NCBI GenBank assembly: GCA_913056365.1
Contig: CAJXLT010000002.1
Location: 620,001-684,000, forward strand
DNA from: an uncultured Paenibacillaceae bacterium
GTDB lineage: Bacteria > Bacillota > Bacilli > Paenibacillales > K13
DNA: 64,000 nt
Reading direction: 5' to 3'
A program made the translations under genes and the position numbers. The number at the start of each line of letters is the position of its first letter. Positions within the stretch are counted from its first letter, which is position 1. Positions 31,050-46,963 of this stretch are shown one piece after another. Under the pieces are notes generated by a model. That model had not been told where the DNA came from. It searched no databases and saw nothing but the letters and a program-made list of their open reading frames with translations.

Positions 31050-31514
31050 CTACCCGTGTCCGATCCAATCCGCTTGCTTGACACCATCTAACTGCCTCAA
31101 TTCCTCTAGCAGACGGCCAAGCGATGCTTCCATCCCCGATGTATCGATCGTTACCACTACATTAGCCATCCCCTGTAGCGGAATCGTCTGATGGATGGTC
31201 AACACATTGCCTTGCCAAGCTGCGATCATCAGCAGTACATTAGACAACACACCAGACCGATGCTGGAGCACCATGGACACCGTTGCTAGACTGCTCTGTG
31301 CATGGCGGTTCAGTTCATGAACACCATCCTTATACTTATAGAAGGCGCTGCGGCTCAGTCCCGCTCCCTCGACAGCCTCATGGACCGTCTTAGCCTCGCC
31401 GGAAGCAAGCAGCTGCTTGGCACGAATCGTCTTCAGTACACCTTCGGGAAGCATGTCCTCACGAACTAAGTAATAATTTCCGCCGCTTGGTGTTTCCTGC
31501 ATAGACAATGGCAA
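31050..31514 (-). CDS. pheB: PheB, HTH plus ACT domain protein (UPF0735 family)
   Basis: A 154-residue protein with an N-terminal helix-turn-helix-like region (about 24-62: IRAKQLLASGEAKTVHEA, then GLSRSAFYKYKDGV) and a C-terminal ACT domain (about 78-150: HRSGVLSNVLLMIAAWQGNV). pheB precedes pheA in B. subtilis; its function there is unsettled. The layout is that of an amino-acid-sensing transcription factor, which is my inference. The frame begins at TTG 31514; another TTG and an ATG at 31502 are possible starts, with AGAGGA as ribosome site. A good sigma-A promoter with leader repeats lies upstream. Confidence 0.85.
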   Translation of the reverse strand: MPLSMQETPSGGNYYLVREDMLPEGVLKTIRAKQLLASGEAKTVHEAVEGAGLSRSAFYKYKDGVHELNRHAQSSLATVSMVLQHRSGVLSNVLLMIAAWQGNVLTIHQTIPLQGMANVVVTIDTSGMEASLGRLLEELRQLDGVKQADWIGHG

Positions 31515-31741: not shown

Positions 31742-33871
31742 TCACGATTGGCGCTCTGCCGCTATCTCGGCATACGCACCTGCCTCCTTCACAGAATCTG
31801 CCCGCTCCATCTGAACGGCACACAGCTTAAACTCAGGCATGCGGCTCACGGGGTCTAGCGCTGGAACAGTGAGCTGATTCACCGACAATTCATCTCCCCA
31901 ATGAAAAGGAAGGAAGACGGTACTTGGATGAATCCCTTCATTAACCTTAACTTCAACTATCATCGTTCCCCTTCGACTAGTAAGACGCAATCGGCTGTTC
32001 AACTTCAGCTTCAGACGATCTGCAACAGAAGGATGAATCTCTGCTATCGGTTGCGGCGCTTTCTTGTTCAATGGTTCTGTTCGTCTAGTTTGAGCCCCGC
32101 TCAAGTAATGATTAGCTAACCGCCCTGTCGTCAATACGTATGGATACTGCTGATCTACCGGTTCAGCAGGCAGCTTCGGAACGATGCTATGAATTCTTGC
32201 CTTCCCATCAGGGTGCGCGAAGGATTCGCTGAACATCATTGGCGTTCCACTATGCGATGGATCTGGACACGGCCAGAACACACCGTTGTTCGCCTTCAGC
32301 TTCTCATACGTAATGCCATAGTAGTCTGCCTTCCCGCCAGCCGACGCGCGCCTCAATTCGTTAAATATATCTTCCGCTTTCTCGTACTGGAAGTATGCGC
32401 CCCTGCCCAATAAGCGCGCCAACGTACACAAAATCTGATAATCTTCAGGATTTCCCCTTGGCGGTTGCATAGCTCTCTCCCGGTAGAACACACGGCCTTC
32501 TAAGTTCGTCAGCGTCCCTTCTGCTTCCATGAAGGAGGAACCCGGAAGCAGCCAGTCGGCCATGCGCGCCGTCTCTGTCTCGAACAGGTCAATTACGACG
32601 AGCAATTCCAGCTTTCGCAACGCTTGCTTCACCAATGAACTGTTCGGACTCGACACAACCGGATTAGAGCCGAGAACGAGCAGTCCCTTAATCTCCCCCG
32701 CATCTATCTTCTCAAACAGTTCATAGGCCGAAACACCTGGTCCTGGCAGCGTCTCTGCATCTACGCCCCATACCGCACTGACATGCTCGCGTGCGCTCTG
32801 TTCCGCAATGCTGCGATAGCCCGGTAATTGGTCGGCTTTCTGTCCGTGTTCTCTGCCTCCCTGTCCATTCGCCTGACCAGTAACAGCACCGAATCCACAG
32901 CCCTTTCTCCCGATCTTACCCGTAATGAGGCACAGGTTCATATAATTCAACGTATTTTCTACACCGTTCACCTGCTGCTCGACCCCTCTAGCCGTTAACA
33001 CGATGCCTGAATGTGATGAGGCAAATTTCCGCGCTATCGTTCGCACCACTGCTGCAACGACACCCGTCAACTCCTCCACCCGATCCGGTGTAAAGGACCT
33101 CACCGCTTCCTTCAATTCATCAAAGCCTGCAGTTCGTGCATCGATAAAAGATGCATCTATTAATTCCTCCTCTATCATCACATGCAATAATCCATTAACG
33201 AATATCGAATCAAAACCAGGTTGCAAGCGAACGTGTACATCCGCTAGCTTGGAAGTCGGCGTATTACGCGGATCAATCGTGACGATAAAAGCGCCTCGTT
33301 TTTTCGCTGCCATCACATAGGGAATCATCGTCGGTTGACATTCCGCAATATTCGTACCAGCCAAGATCAAGCAATCTGCATTCGAAATTTCCTCAAGCGG
33401 CATCGTCATGCCTCGATCGATACCGAATGCTTTGTTGCCCGCAGCCGCAGCAGATGACATGCAATATCTCCCGTTATAGTCGATATAAGGTGTCTGCAGT
33501 GCGATTCGAGCAAACTTGCCTAATAAATAGGAAACCTCATTCGTCAGCGAACCCCCGCCAAACACAGCTATGCTTTCCTTACCGTGCTTCGTTTGCAGTC
33601 CGCGAATGTCCTGTGCGATCTGTTCGAGCGCACTGCTCCAAGCTACTTCATGCCATTCCCCTGATTGCTCACCTTCAGTCACTAGCTGCTTTCTCGGTGA
33701 CAGCACTCTTGATTCATGAAAGACATGTACGGGTGCTTGAAATCCTTTCTGACACAATCTCCCCGTCGAAACCGGGAAGTCCTTCCGTGGTTTTGCCGTC
33801 CATTCTCCATCTCCAACTTCAATTTCCAACCCACATTGCATGCTGCAAAAGCAGCAGTGACTCTTAGCCAT
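31742..33871 (-). CDS. Molybdopterin oxidoreductase, assimilatory nitrate reductase catalytic subunit (NasC-like)
   Basis: A 709-residue cytoplasmic enzyme predicted to reduce nitrate to nitrite. The [4Fe-4S] cysteines are Cys6, Cys9, Cys13 and Cys40. The expected molybdenum-ligand cysteine is Cys137 in YNGRYCMSSAAAAG. Cofactor-binding stretches include ILAGTNIAECQPTM, GQANGQGGREHGQKADQLPG (typical of nitrate reductases) and the C-terminal TGRLANHYLSGAQTRR. There is no signal peptide, which separates it from periplasmic or exported formate dehydrogenases. No electron-transfer partner (NasB) or transporter is adjacent, so reductant may come from ferredoxin or flavodoxin or from genes elsewhere. 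It follows the TrpD2-like gene by 39 bases and shares its GlnR/TnrA boxes. Confidence 0.88.
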   Translation of the reverse strand: MAKSHCCFCSMQCGLEIEVGDGEWTAKPRKDFPVSTGRLCQKGFQAPVHVFHESRVLSPRKQLVTEGEQSGEWHEVAWSSALEQIAQDIRGLQTKHGKESIAVFGGGSLTNEVSYLLGKFARIALQTPYIDYNGRYCMSSAAAAGNKAFGIDRGMTMPLEEISNADCLILAGTNIAECQPTMIPYVMAAKKRGAFIVTIDPRNTPTSKLADVHVRLQPGFDSIFVNGLLHVMIEEELIDASFIDARTAGFDELKEAVRSFTPDRVEELTGVVAAVVRTIARKFASSHSGIVLTARGVEQQVNGVENTLNYMNLCLITGKIGRKGCGFGAVTGQANGQGGREHGQKADQLPGYRSIAEQSAREHVSAVWGVDAETLPGPGVSAYELFEKIDAGEIKGLLVLGSNPVVSSPNSSLVKQALRKLELLVVIDLFETETARMADWLLPGSSFMEAEGTLTNLEGRVFYRERAMQPPRGNPEDYQILCTLARLLGRGAYFQYEKAEDIFNELRRASAGGKADYYGITYEKLKANNGVFWPCPDPSHSGTPMMFSESFAHPDGKARIHSIVPKLPAEPVDQQYPYVLTTGRLANHYLSGAQTRRTEPLNKKAPQPIAEIHPSVADRLKLKLNSRLRLTSRRGTMIVEVKVNEGIHPSTVFLPFHWGDELSVNQLTVPALDPVSRMPEFKLCAVQMERADSVKEAGAYAEIAAERQS

Positions 33872-33910: not shown

Positions 33911-35008
33911 TCATTGTCCTCGTTCTTTCTCTAGCACCGGCTGCTCCATTACGGTGTGACTTTGTTCTATCCATCTGCGAAGCAGTTTAAGCGGCTCTTT
34001 CCTGCGCAATAGCGATCTGGCCAGTTGGAAGCCGTCCTCGTACGAGCTTACACGGTCATACCAGAAAAAACGCAAGCCTGCATTAAATACAACATGATCC
34101 TCAATAAACTGTATATCTTCCGCAGAATCCCCTTCCAAAAACGATTGTAATAAGCGAATCTGAGCTTCAGTTGAATACTTGCCGACGGGCGATCCTTGAA
34201 AGCCAAACATGCGCGGATCAATATAGGAGGCTTCGTCACCGTGCGCAGTTACCTTCCGTATAGCGCTTCTCCTGTGAAGCGGCAAATCTTCAGATCCTTC
34301 TATACCTTGCACGATATAAGCCTTAGTAAAGCCCGCTCTTGCCAGCACATGCATCATGTGCTCCATCGCTGTATCATGGTTAACACCTATCAACATAAAT
34401 TTAGAATGAACTGGATTCATTACCTTCTCTACCGTATTCATTACCGTTCGCAAGCCAATCTCCTCGCGGAGTGCTCGCACTCGTGCTATTGGAGGGCAAA
34501 TACGCTCCGTCTGAATAAATCCGATATGCAAACTGCTGAATTCCTGTTCCCATGATTTCTTATCCATATGCAGGTTGACGCCCAAGCCTCTAAGCACCTC
34601 CATAATGGCCGCACCCTTCTTAGGAGGAAGTGACTTACCGCCATGGAGCACGTGCGGAATGCCTACAGAAGCCATCAATAAGCTGACTGGTATCGTGAAC
34701 GGAATCGTATATCTGCCGTCATACGGTCCTGCACAATTAATAGAGTTCGGATATTTCCTATAGGGAATGGTCTGTTCGCGGAACACATCGATGAGCGCCG
34801 TAATCTCATCATCCGACTCCCCTTTCATGCGGAGTGCCATCAAGAACGATGCGATCTGCACATCACTTGCCCGATTGTCAGCAATTAATCGAGCAGCTTC
34901 TGCTGCCTCCTCATAATCCAGATTTCTTGAACCTCTCTTCCCCGTTCCTACCGCTTTAATCCACGGATGCATGAAAGGAAGATGCTGCTCATAAGAATCA
35001 TGAATCAT
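33911..35008 (-). CDS. TrpD2/YbiB-like anthranilate phosphoribosyltransferase homologue
   Basis: A 365-residue protein with the TrpD fold: an N-terminal helical domain (MHPWIKAVGTGKRGSRNLDY, then SFLMALRMKGESDDEITAL) and a C-terminal alpha/beta domain. The PRPP loop GTGGD of true TrpD is replaced by CAGPYDGR, and the next site reads VLHGGKSLPPKKGAA instead of KHGNR-type sequence, so tryptophan synthesis is unlikely. E. coli YbiB of the TrpD2 group, which binds nucleic acid, has comparable changes. No trp genes are nearby. The ATG at 35008 has GGAGGG six bases upstream. It leads a two-gene unit with the nitrate reductase behind two GlnR/TnrA boxes, which suggests a role in nitrogen metabolism that is not described as far as I know. 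Confidence 0.8.
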   Translation of the reverse strand: MIHDSYEQHLPFMHPWIKAVGTGKRGSRNLDYEEAAEAARLIADNRASDVQIASFLMALRMKGESDDEITALIDVFREQTIPYRKYPNSINCAGPYDGRYTIPFTIPVSLLMASVGIPHVLHGGKSLPPKKGAAIMEVLRGLGVNLHMDKKSWEQEFSSLHIGFIQTERICPPIARVRALREEIGLRTVMNTVEKVMNPVHSKFMLIGVNHDTAMEHMMHVLARAGFTKAYIVQGIEGSEDLPLHRRSAIRKVTAHGDEASYIDPRMFGFQGSPVGKYSTEAQIRLLQSFLEGDSAEDIQFIEDHVVFNAGLRFFWYDRVSSYEDGFQLARSLLRRKEPLKLLRRWIEQSHTVMEQPVLEKERGQ

Positions 35009-35037: not shown

Positions 35038-35054
35038 TGTCATATTATATAACA
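35038..35054. promoter_or_regulatory. GlnR/TnrA box 1 (promoter-proximal)
   Basis: TGTCATATTATATAACA fits the consensus TGTNA-N7-TNACA at every fixed position. A TATAAT on the minus strand (plus 35044-35049) lies inside it, 36 bases before the TrpD2-like start, so binding here should block that promoter. Confidence 0.75.
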
Positions 35055-35110
35055 TATAAAATCAATAAACCATCATCTGACCAAAAAACAAACTTGAATT
35101 CAAATAATAA

Positions 35111-35127
35111 TGTTATGTTTCCTAACA
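35111..35127. promoter_or_regulatory. GlnR/TnrA box 2 (upstream)
   Basis: TGTTATGTTTCCTAACA is a second perfect match to TGTNA-N7-TNACA, starting 73 bases (about seven helical turns) from box 1 on the upstream side. The 35009-35342 interval is AT-rich and otherwise holds the promoter and the obg terminator; the open frames in it lack ribosome sites. Confidence 0.75.
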
Positions 35128-35225
35128 TATATAATAACTGTCCTTTTACGATTAATCAAGGCAATCAACTTAAAAATGTACTACTTTCTTCATCAATAAA
35201 TGAAATTGACATGCGATCATGGATA

Positions 35226-35286
35226 AAAAACAAAAATAAACCCGAACATTCAACCTATTCAATAGATTGATCATTCGGGTTTATTT
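35226..35286 (-). terminator. Rho-independent terminator after obg
   Basis: A perfect 13-base stem AAATAAACCCGAA / TTCGGGTTTATTT (35234-35246 and 35274-35286) is followed on the minus strand by a T-rich tract (TTGTTTTTTA). It separates obg from the GlnR-boxed unit. Confidence 0.88.

Positions 35287-35342: not shown

Positions 35343-37452
<2,110 letters not shown>

Positions 37453-45895: not shown

Positions 45896-46963
<1,068 letters not shown>

Follow-up and report, generated by a model that had tools for sequence, protein, structure and literature searches.

GlnR operators, and pairs of GlnR sites, are already known, the closest described systems being the nif promoters of Paenibacillus. 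In P. polymyxa nif, site I is located 58 bp upstream of the −35 element and site II comes 24 bp after the transcription start (PMC6191146). The two sites, which share one consensus and flank the promoter 118 and 119 bp apart in P. polymyxa WLY78 and P. sabinae T27, are read by GlnR together with the glutamine-inhibited form of glutamine synthetase (FBI-GS). It has been reported that FBI-GS binds the tail motif XG(E/D)XSRF and that GlnR is activated by FBI-GS via its C-terminal tail (PMC9249791). For P. riograndensis nif, it was proposed that GlnR and FBI-GS form a loop (Fernandes et al. 2017, as cited in PMC6191146 and PMC10789242), with two GlnR dimers on two operators and glutamine synthetase (GS) as the bridge, whereas, in the view of the authors who studied them, the P. 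polymyxa nif mutants lend no support to looping (PMC6191146). The debate on GlnR-GS looping has thus so far concerned one promoter, nif, with opposite conclusions. Two GlnR sites are also present in B. subtilis glnRA, where they adjoin around the −35 element and one of them overlaps it (PMC6191146).

In this work we analyse a locus in a window of 64,000 nucleotides (the whole stretch of DNA studied), where two boxes precede a trpD2-like gene that is followed by a nasC-like nitrate reductase gene (Table 1). As in nif, two sites of the same consensus are present that are expected to be read by GlnR and FBI-GS. As in the loop model for P. riograndensis, our proposal has two GlnR dimers, two operators and a GS bridge. 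By contrast with nif, where the sites flank the promoter, the boxes here are placed at and after the expected transcription start and 73 bp apart, and by contrast with B. subtilis glnRA they are separated by several helical turns. Moreover, while the loop model was made for nif, it is extended here by a spacing rule found at many promoters of the order. In the papers listed by our searches of the open literature, we came across no description of trpD2 as a target of GlnR, nor of a helical phasing of its sites. The gene is absent from the 24 predicted P. polymyxa GlnR targets in the accessible main text of PMC9948412, the supplement of which holds 488 putative sites. The word "spacing" does not occur in PMC9249791, and neither this word nor "distance between", "helix" or "periodic" occurs in the comparative GlnR study PMC3412718.

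Table 1. Features of the trpD2-like locus, with positions counted in the window.
Feature	Position	Strand	Basis and remarks
ACT-domain protein gene	31050..31514	minus	NCBIfam PRK04435, above cut-off; downstream of the nitrate genes
nasC-like molybdopterin nitrate reductase gene	31742..33871	minus	Pfam Molybdopterin domains; 39 bp past trpD2
trpD2-like gene	33911..35008	minus	Pfam Glycos_transf_3 and Glycos_transf_3N
GlnR box 2 (predicted)	35038..35054	minus	perfect TGTNA-N7-TNACA; 73 bp downstream of box 1
GlnR box 1 (predicted, upstream box)	35111..35127	minus	perfect TGTNA-N7-TNACA; over the expected P1 start
Promoter P1 (predicted)	35131..35159	minus	TTGATT (35159-35154), 17 bp, TATTAT (35136-35131); 9/12
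Hairpin ACCCGAA...TTCGGGT, then T-rich run	35240..35281	minus	likely obgE terminator; read directly from the sequence
obgE (GTPase Obg)	35343..36647	minus	NCBIfam ObgE, 628 bits, above cut-off; upstream neighbour, co-directional with trpD2

The two boxes and their conservation

The gap between obgE and the trpD2-like gene, where the boxes are found, is 328 bp long and has 28% GC. The reading frame of the trpD2-like gene opens at TTG 35014, and the ATG at 35008 stands 6 nt past a GGAGGG. The NasC-like protein scores 971 bits with NCBIfam AssmNtatRedNasC, the top one among the families listed, which is below the cut-off of 1100. No claim is made that the ACT-domain gene belongs to the trpD2-nasC unit. 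The hairpin behind obgE is retained in the alignment with the sister genome G001 (same genus, protein 81% identical); it was not among the output of the terminator scan.

According to the original prediction, two exact copies of TGTNA-N7-TNACA stand 73 bases apart before the trpD2-like gene, and both are indeed there, separated by 73 bp from start to start. The window as a whole holds 3 perfect matches versus 0.81 expected, with at least three occurring in 6 of 100 shuffles, and 19 one-mismatch sites versus 21.8 expected, a count that was not used alone. The third perfect match, at 46913-46929, is inside a reading frame (45896-46951, mreB-like by eye) and is probably due to chance. Genome-wide, 67 perfect matches are found versus 85 for a reversed control pattern, for which reason the enrichment of single motifs was dropped as evidence. 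When a 328-bp gap was simulated with a first-order Markov model, at least one site appeared in 1,748 of 100,000 runs, and because only 14 of the 100,000 contained two or more, the pair is not ascribed to chance.

In the sister genome both boxes persist, 62 bp apart instead of 73, and they are at the same places as in the window though much of the gap has diverged. In a survey of 392 genomes of the order, TrpD2 relatives with E <=1e-60 turned up in 127, a number that takes in remote paralogues that are about 37% identical. A search of family f5 (104 genomes) gave no further trpD2 genomes, and a scan of the collection for TrpD2 relatives with one query sequence hit nothing but remote loci of archaea and betaproteobacteria, which were not used further. 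Among the loci fetched, obgE lies upstream of trpD2 on the same strand in 46, a count that leaves out loci whose obgE fell outside the fetched piece and that includes one locus (L105) only 38% identical. The gap to the aligned trpD2 start is 159-1761 bp in these loci and exceeds 600 bp in seven. At least one strict box is present between the two genes in 45 of the 46 loci, and a strict pair 38-130 bp apart is present in 34, the other 12 being without it. At the nasA-first loci read at length (n = 8), one strict box occurs in seven and none in L135. With 11 permuted palindromic decoys of the same letters, no pair was obtained in 136 promoter regions, while the true motif gives pairs in 69 of them.

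Among the genome matches listed, the sole other pair no more than 100 bp apart in the host genome stands just before a nirB-like gene (G000, contig C5, 134009-134109; L021:3510-3610). This pair is strict, with a spacing of 84 bp (8 turns); the gene product matches PF03460, and a nirD-like frame comes next (by eye). The host genome also has a glnRA operon, the GlnR of which, with 153 residues, ends in NQGDLSRFFQ and thus contains the XG(E/D)XSRF motif. TnrA was tried as a second regulator and dropped, because no close second GlnR homologue was found in the host genome, the next MerR relative being 33% identical over 95 residues.

Based on the order-wide conservation, on the glnRA operon with the GS-binding tail motif and on the second pair before the nirB-like gene, there is good support for reading the boxes as predicted GlnR operators that control nasC and the trpD2-like gene, and this part of the original prediction is upheld. 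It would be highly improbable that the boxes are instead chance matches or the sites of another regulator. Such an explanation would suit the absence of enrichment of single perfect matches in the genome, but it is at odds with the frequency of the pairs, their conservation, the decoys and the nitrate-gene context. It is equally at odds with a gene-blind search of 198 genomes for a first box starting with TGTTA and a second one 40-70 or 71-101 bp on, where paired sites were found in 100 and 130 genomes, respectively, while the reversed pattern occurs in 6 and 9 of them (8 and 10 matches).

Promoter position and direction of control

The −10 element of P1 finishes 3 bp upstream of box 1. At the same place the sister genome has TTGCTT-N17-TATTAT (8/12), and other relatives have TTGAAC or close variants, N17, and TATA(G/T)T or TATTAT, ending 3-8 bp before the box. 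By motif alone the scan does no better than shuffles (2 promoter-like sites vs 2.5 expected). A promoter of at least 9/12 ending 2-10 nt before box 1 is present in 21 of 24 rows, or 19 of 21 distinct loci, the rows having been grouped after the sequences were seen and three of them being second copies (L131, L137, L138). The same rule applied at nine other positions gives 0 of 24. The rule fails in the sister genome, which scores 8, and in locus G171; L128 is absent from the rows, having no obgE on its piece. In genus g27 (28 loci) no locus has a promoter in this position; by eye, box 1 there contains the −35 element (CTTGACA), followed after 17 bp by TACGAT or TACCAT, with box 2 downstream.

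With 3 bp separating the conserved promoter from box 1, P1 transcription is expected to start at about 35124, where box 1 would cover the start, and box 2 would then extend from about +71 to +87. In both locus groups one box would thus be over the start or the −35 element and the other downstream, which are positions typical of repression. Judged from the position of the boxes, repression is the likelier direction of control.

By contrast, it was originally predicted that one box is over the −10 element of the trpD2-like gene and that the pair combines an upstream activating site with a promoter-overlapping repressing site, as in nif. The −10 element in question, a TATAAT inside box 2 (35049-35044, minus strand), has at best a 2/6 match at its −35 position and is missing from box 2 of the sister genome, so that this assignment is not borne out. 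The nif-type layout is not found either, because the conserved −10 element precedes box 1, both boxes being at or after the expected start; box 1 would be upstream of a −35 element only if the non-conserved TATAAT promoter were used. A start under this TATAAT was considered as the main model and was dropped because it is not conserved.

It is unlikely, in our judgement, that box 1 activates from upstream while box 2 represses over a −10 element, giving biphasic control as in nif. For such control speaks that the TATAAT within box 2 is perfect, and its −35 element is poor as in many activator-dependent promoters, which often have a poor one. Paenibacillus nif operates in this way (PMC6191146, PMC9894248). 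Furthermore, in P. polymyxa ChIP located GlnR on the promoters of nasA, nasD1 and nasD2EF when nitrogen was limiting and not when it was in excess, and on nitrate and on nitrite the wild type outgrows the glnR mutant (PMC9948412). However, the TATAAT is missing in the sister genome, a position-conserved promoter is present upstream of box 1, and in P. polymyxa the nasA and nasDC transcripts are lower in the wild type than in the glnR mutant in both nitrogen conditions, from which it was concluded by the authors that GlnR exerts direct negative control of nas (PMC9948412). In B. subtilis, the nas genes are activated by TnrA (stated in PMC9948412). The published nas data are thus mixed as to the direction of control. 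As regards the biphasic nitrogen control that had been predicted, the layout does not predict it, while the second, non-conserved promoter could be real and the mixed nas data leave it some room.

Helical spacing of the paired boxes and the proposed switch

The 73 bp of the window pair correspond to 6.95 turns of 10.5 bp. The spacings of the trpD2 pairs are 52, 61-63, 73, 83-85 and 94 bp, with exceptions at 76 and 80, where those at 52, 80 and 85 include a one-mismatch box. Because these spacings resembled whole turns, nirB, with its 84-bp pair in the host genome, was tested as a second promoter. The nirB sample consisted of 90 promoter regions, 30 of them given as loci and 60 picked for genus spread (L188 having only 133 bp), and only the best mismatch class per region, at 38-130 bp, was kept. 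The strict pairs of trpD2 and nirB together form 28 within-genus clusters with R of 0.63 at 10.5 bp, a value reached by none of 20,000 uniform draws. The trpD2 pairs alone are phased more weakly (6 clusters, 328 of 20,000 draws reaching the value). The trpD2 spacings used in the cluster test are 35 strict and 4 one-mismatch ones, where the 35, versus the 34 loci given above, is explained by L093, which has no obgE on its piece. With each distinct spacing counted once, 7 of 50,000 draws reach the observed value.

The phasing was then examined with the pairs of the gene-blind search, namely the 243 distinct places among the matches listed, all of which were used. The spacings have peaks at 41, 51, 62, 72-73, 84 and 94 bp, with the valleys empty or nearly so. 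With an in-phase window that was fixed after the data were seen, the in-phase third contains 204 of the 243 listed pairs and the opposite third 9. Orthologous promoters of one genus account for many of these pairs; with one pair taken per genus (22 genera among those listed), the median R is 0.70 versus a 99.9% null limit of 0.55. The period that fits best varies with the subset, from 10.3 to 10.9 bp. Among single genomes, which were chosen for their many listed pairs, phasing is seen in G073 (12 pairs, 7/50,000) and in G191 (7 pairs, 2/50,000), and is not significant for the four pairs of G060 (9,769/50,000). Within one genome, promoters differ in the number of turns and share the phase (G073, G113, G173, G191).

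It is also observed that some nirB promoters have three in-phase boxes, as in L155, where they are spaced by 72 and 72 bp and the middle box has one mismatch, and in L186, where three strict boxes are spaced by 84 and 71 bp. Conserved GlnR pairs spaced by 41 bp and by 94 bp are found repeatedly across genus g27.

Of the explanations considered, the likeliest is a pair of phased GlnR sites that works as a repressor switch, and bridging by GS is a reasonable inference. Based on this proposal, transcription of trpD2-nasC would be initiated at P1, with the start point beneath box 1. FBI-GS would activate GlnR dimers, which would then occupy box 1 and box 2. With a whole number of helical turns between the boxes, the two dimers would be on the same face of the helix, where a bridge, for which the GS dodecamer is the most likely candidate, could join them in a small loop that would block RNA polymerase. 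In the simplest form of the switch, nitrogen excess would lead to repression and limitation to release. A bridged or wrapped complex would require a same-face spacing of this kind, which is kept across 4 to 9 turns.

Several observations stand against parts of this proposal, among them the interpretation of the P. polymyxa nif mutants and the activation of nas by B. subtilis TnrA given above, and the trpD2 loci that have no strict pair. For a free DNA loop, a 41-bp spacing is very short, and the occupancy by P. polymyxa GlnR in limitation, together with the growth defect of the mutant (PMC9948412), disagrees with simple repression in excess. Because of these ChIP and growth data on the nas genes, we give the complete two-operator switch for trpD2-nasC, with the P1 start under box 1, bridging of the dimers, likely by GS, and repression, only about an even chance.

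A rather unlikely alternative is that the two sites are GlnR repressor sites with no GS bridge, the phasing arising from contact between the dimers or from fixation to one face of RNA polymerase. Cooperative binding of GlnR to two sites has been reported for B. subtilis glnRA (PMC6191146), and phasing by itself demonstrates placement on the same face, not a bridge. Yet the pair spacings rise turn by turn from 40 to 96 bp, which is far for direct contact without bending, and the arrangement of promoter and boxes varies between groups while the phase is constant. The helical spacing thus favours bridging in general, and it does not single out GS as the bridge.

Returning to the GS-bridged switch, a wider form of it would be that GS serves as a DNA-looping or wrapping hub across the order, where FBI-GS would hold at least two GlnR dimers and, at many nitrogen promoters, evolution would keep the operators a whole number of turns apart (4 to 9). 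This generalisation is put forward tentatively, at somewhat less than even probability.

TrpD2-like proteins in nitrate assimilation

The trpD2-like protein is below the NCBIfam cut-offs for TrpD, PRK07394 and YbiB. In place of GTGGD and KHGN, which we take to be the motifs of TrpD (anthranilate phosphoribosyltransferase) and which are retained in the other TrpD-like protein of the genome, it carries CAGPYDG and LHGG. With these motifs lost and the score below the trpD cut-off, the protein was not classed as TrpD. The sequence matches PDB entries 7y3p, 8bfr and 4muo, of the same fold family. An 'anthranilate phosphoribosyltransferase' flanking nrtABCD is on record, which its authors termed unrelated.

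The neighbours of trpD2 vary within one pathway, the arrangements being trpD2-nasC (window and sister genome), nasA-nasC-trpD2, nasA-trpD2-nasC and nirA-trpD2-cbiX. In the interval from obgE to the ACT-domain gene (L118, L125-L144) the nitrate genes change in order and content, and trpD2 alone also occurs; both flanking genes are present in 17 of the 21 loci read at length. The gene names of the relatives rest on Pfam for five proteins (two of them for ANTAR), the other nasA, nirB and ANTAR names having been given by eye from N-terminal similarity. In G016 (L104 and L142), the TrpD2 gene is flanked by genes for a nitrite/sulphite reductase and for CbiX, outside the NasC context. The TrpD2 paralogues of about 37% identity (L106-L124) come after an ANTAR-domain protein and point away from nasA- or nirB-like genes, with GlnR boxes in the divergent gap in most of those printed. 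It is possible that the ANTAR protein is an antiterminator linked to TrpD2; a search of the host genome for an ANTAR regulator gave no match, and the control genomes likewise gave none. As a separate observation, G135, G145, G179 and a few others have one stop codon in the trpD2-aligned stretch, which may reflect a sequencing error, decay or an overrun of the alignment.

The E. coli TrpD2 protein YbiB, of the same fold family as the protein here, binds ObgE (PMC10123104), and here the trpD2-like gene adjoins obgE. In the alignment, Arg92 of YbiB is one column from an Arg, and Arg123 is aligned with a Lys. By contrast with E. coli ybiB, which is LexA-regulated with dinG (PMC10123104), the gene here is in a nitrate unit with GlnR boxes. 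A TrpD2-Obg link under nitrogen control is at this stage a lead only, and obgE and trpD2 may be neighbours simply through where an insertion happened to fall, because nasA can intervene between the two genes.

The spacing rule, which is seen at many promoters and in 22 genera among the listed pairs, makes the looping question testable. It would also be a sharper finder of true GlnR targets than the loose motif, which is a poor one because alone it is no better than the reversed control in the host genome. If the reading of GS as a hub is true, the GlnR regulon would be readable from the spacing rule besides the motif. For the TrpD2 family, which is poorly understood, the finding places the gene in nitrate assimilation, beside obgE.
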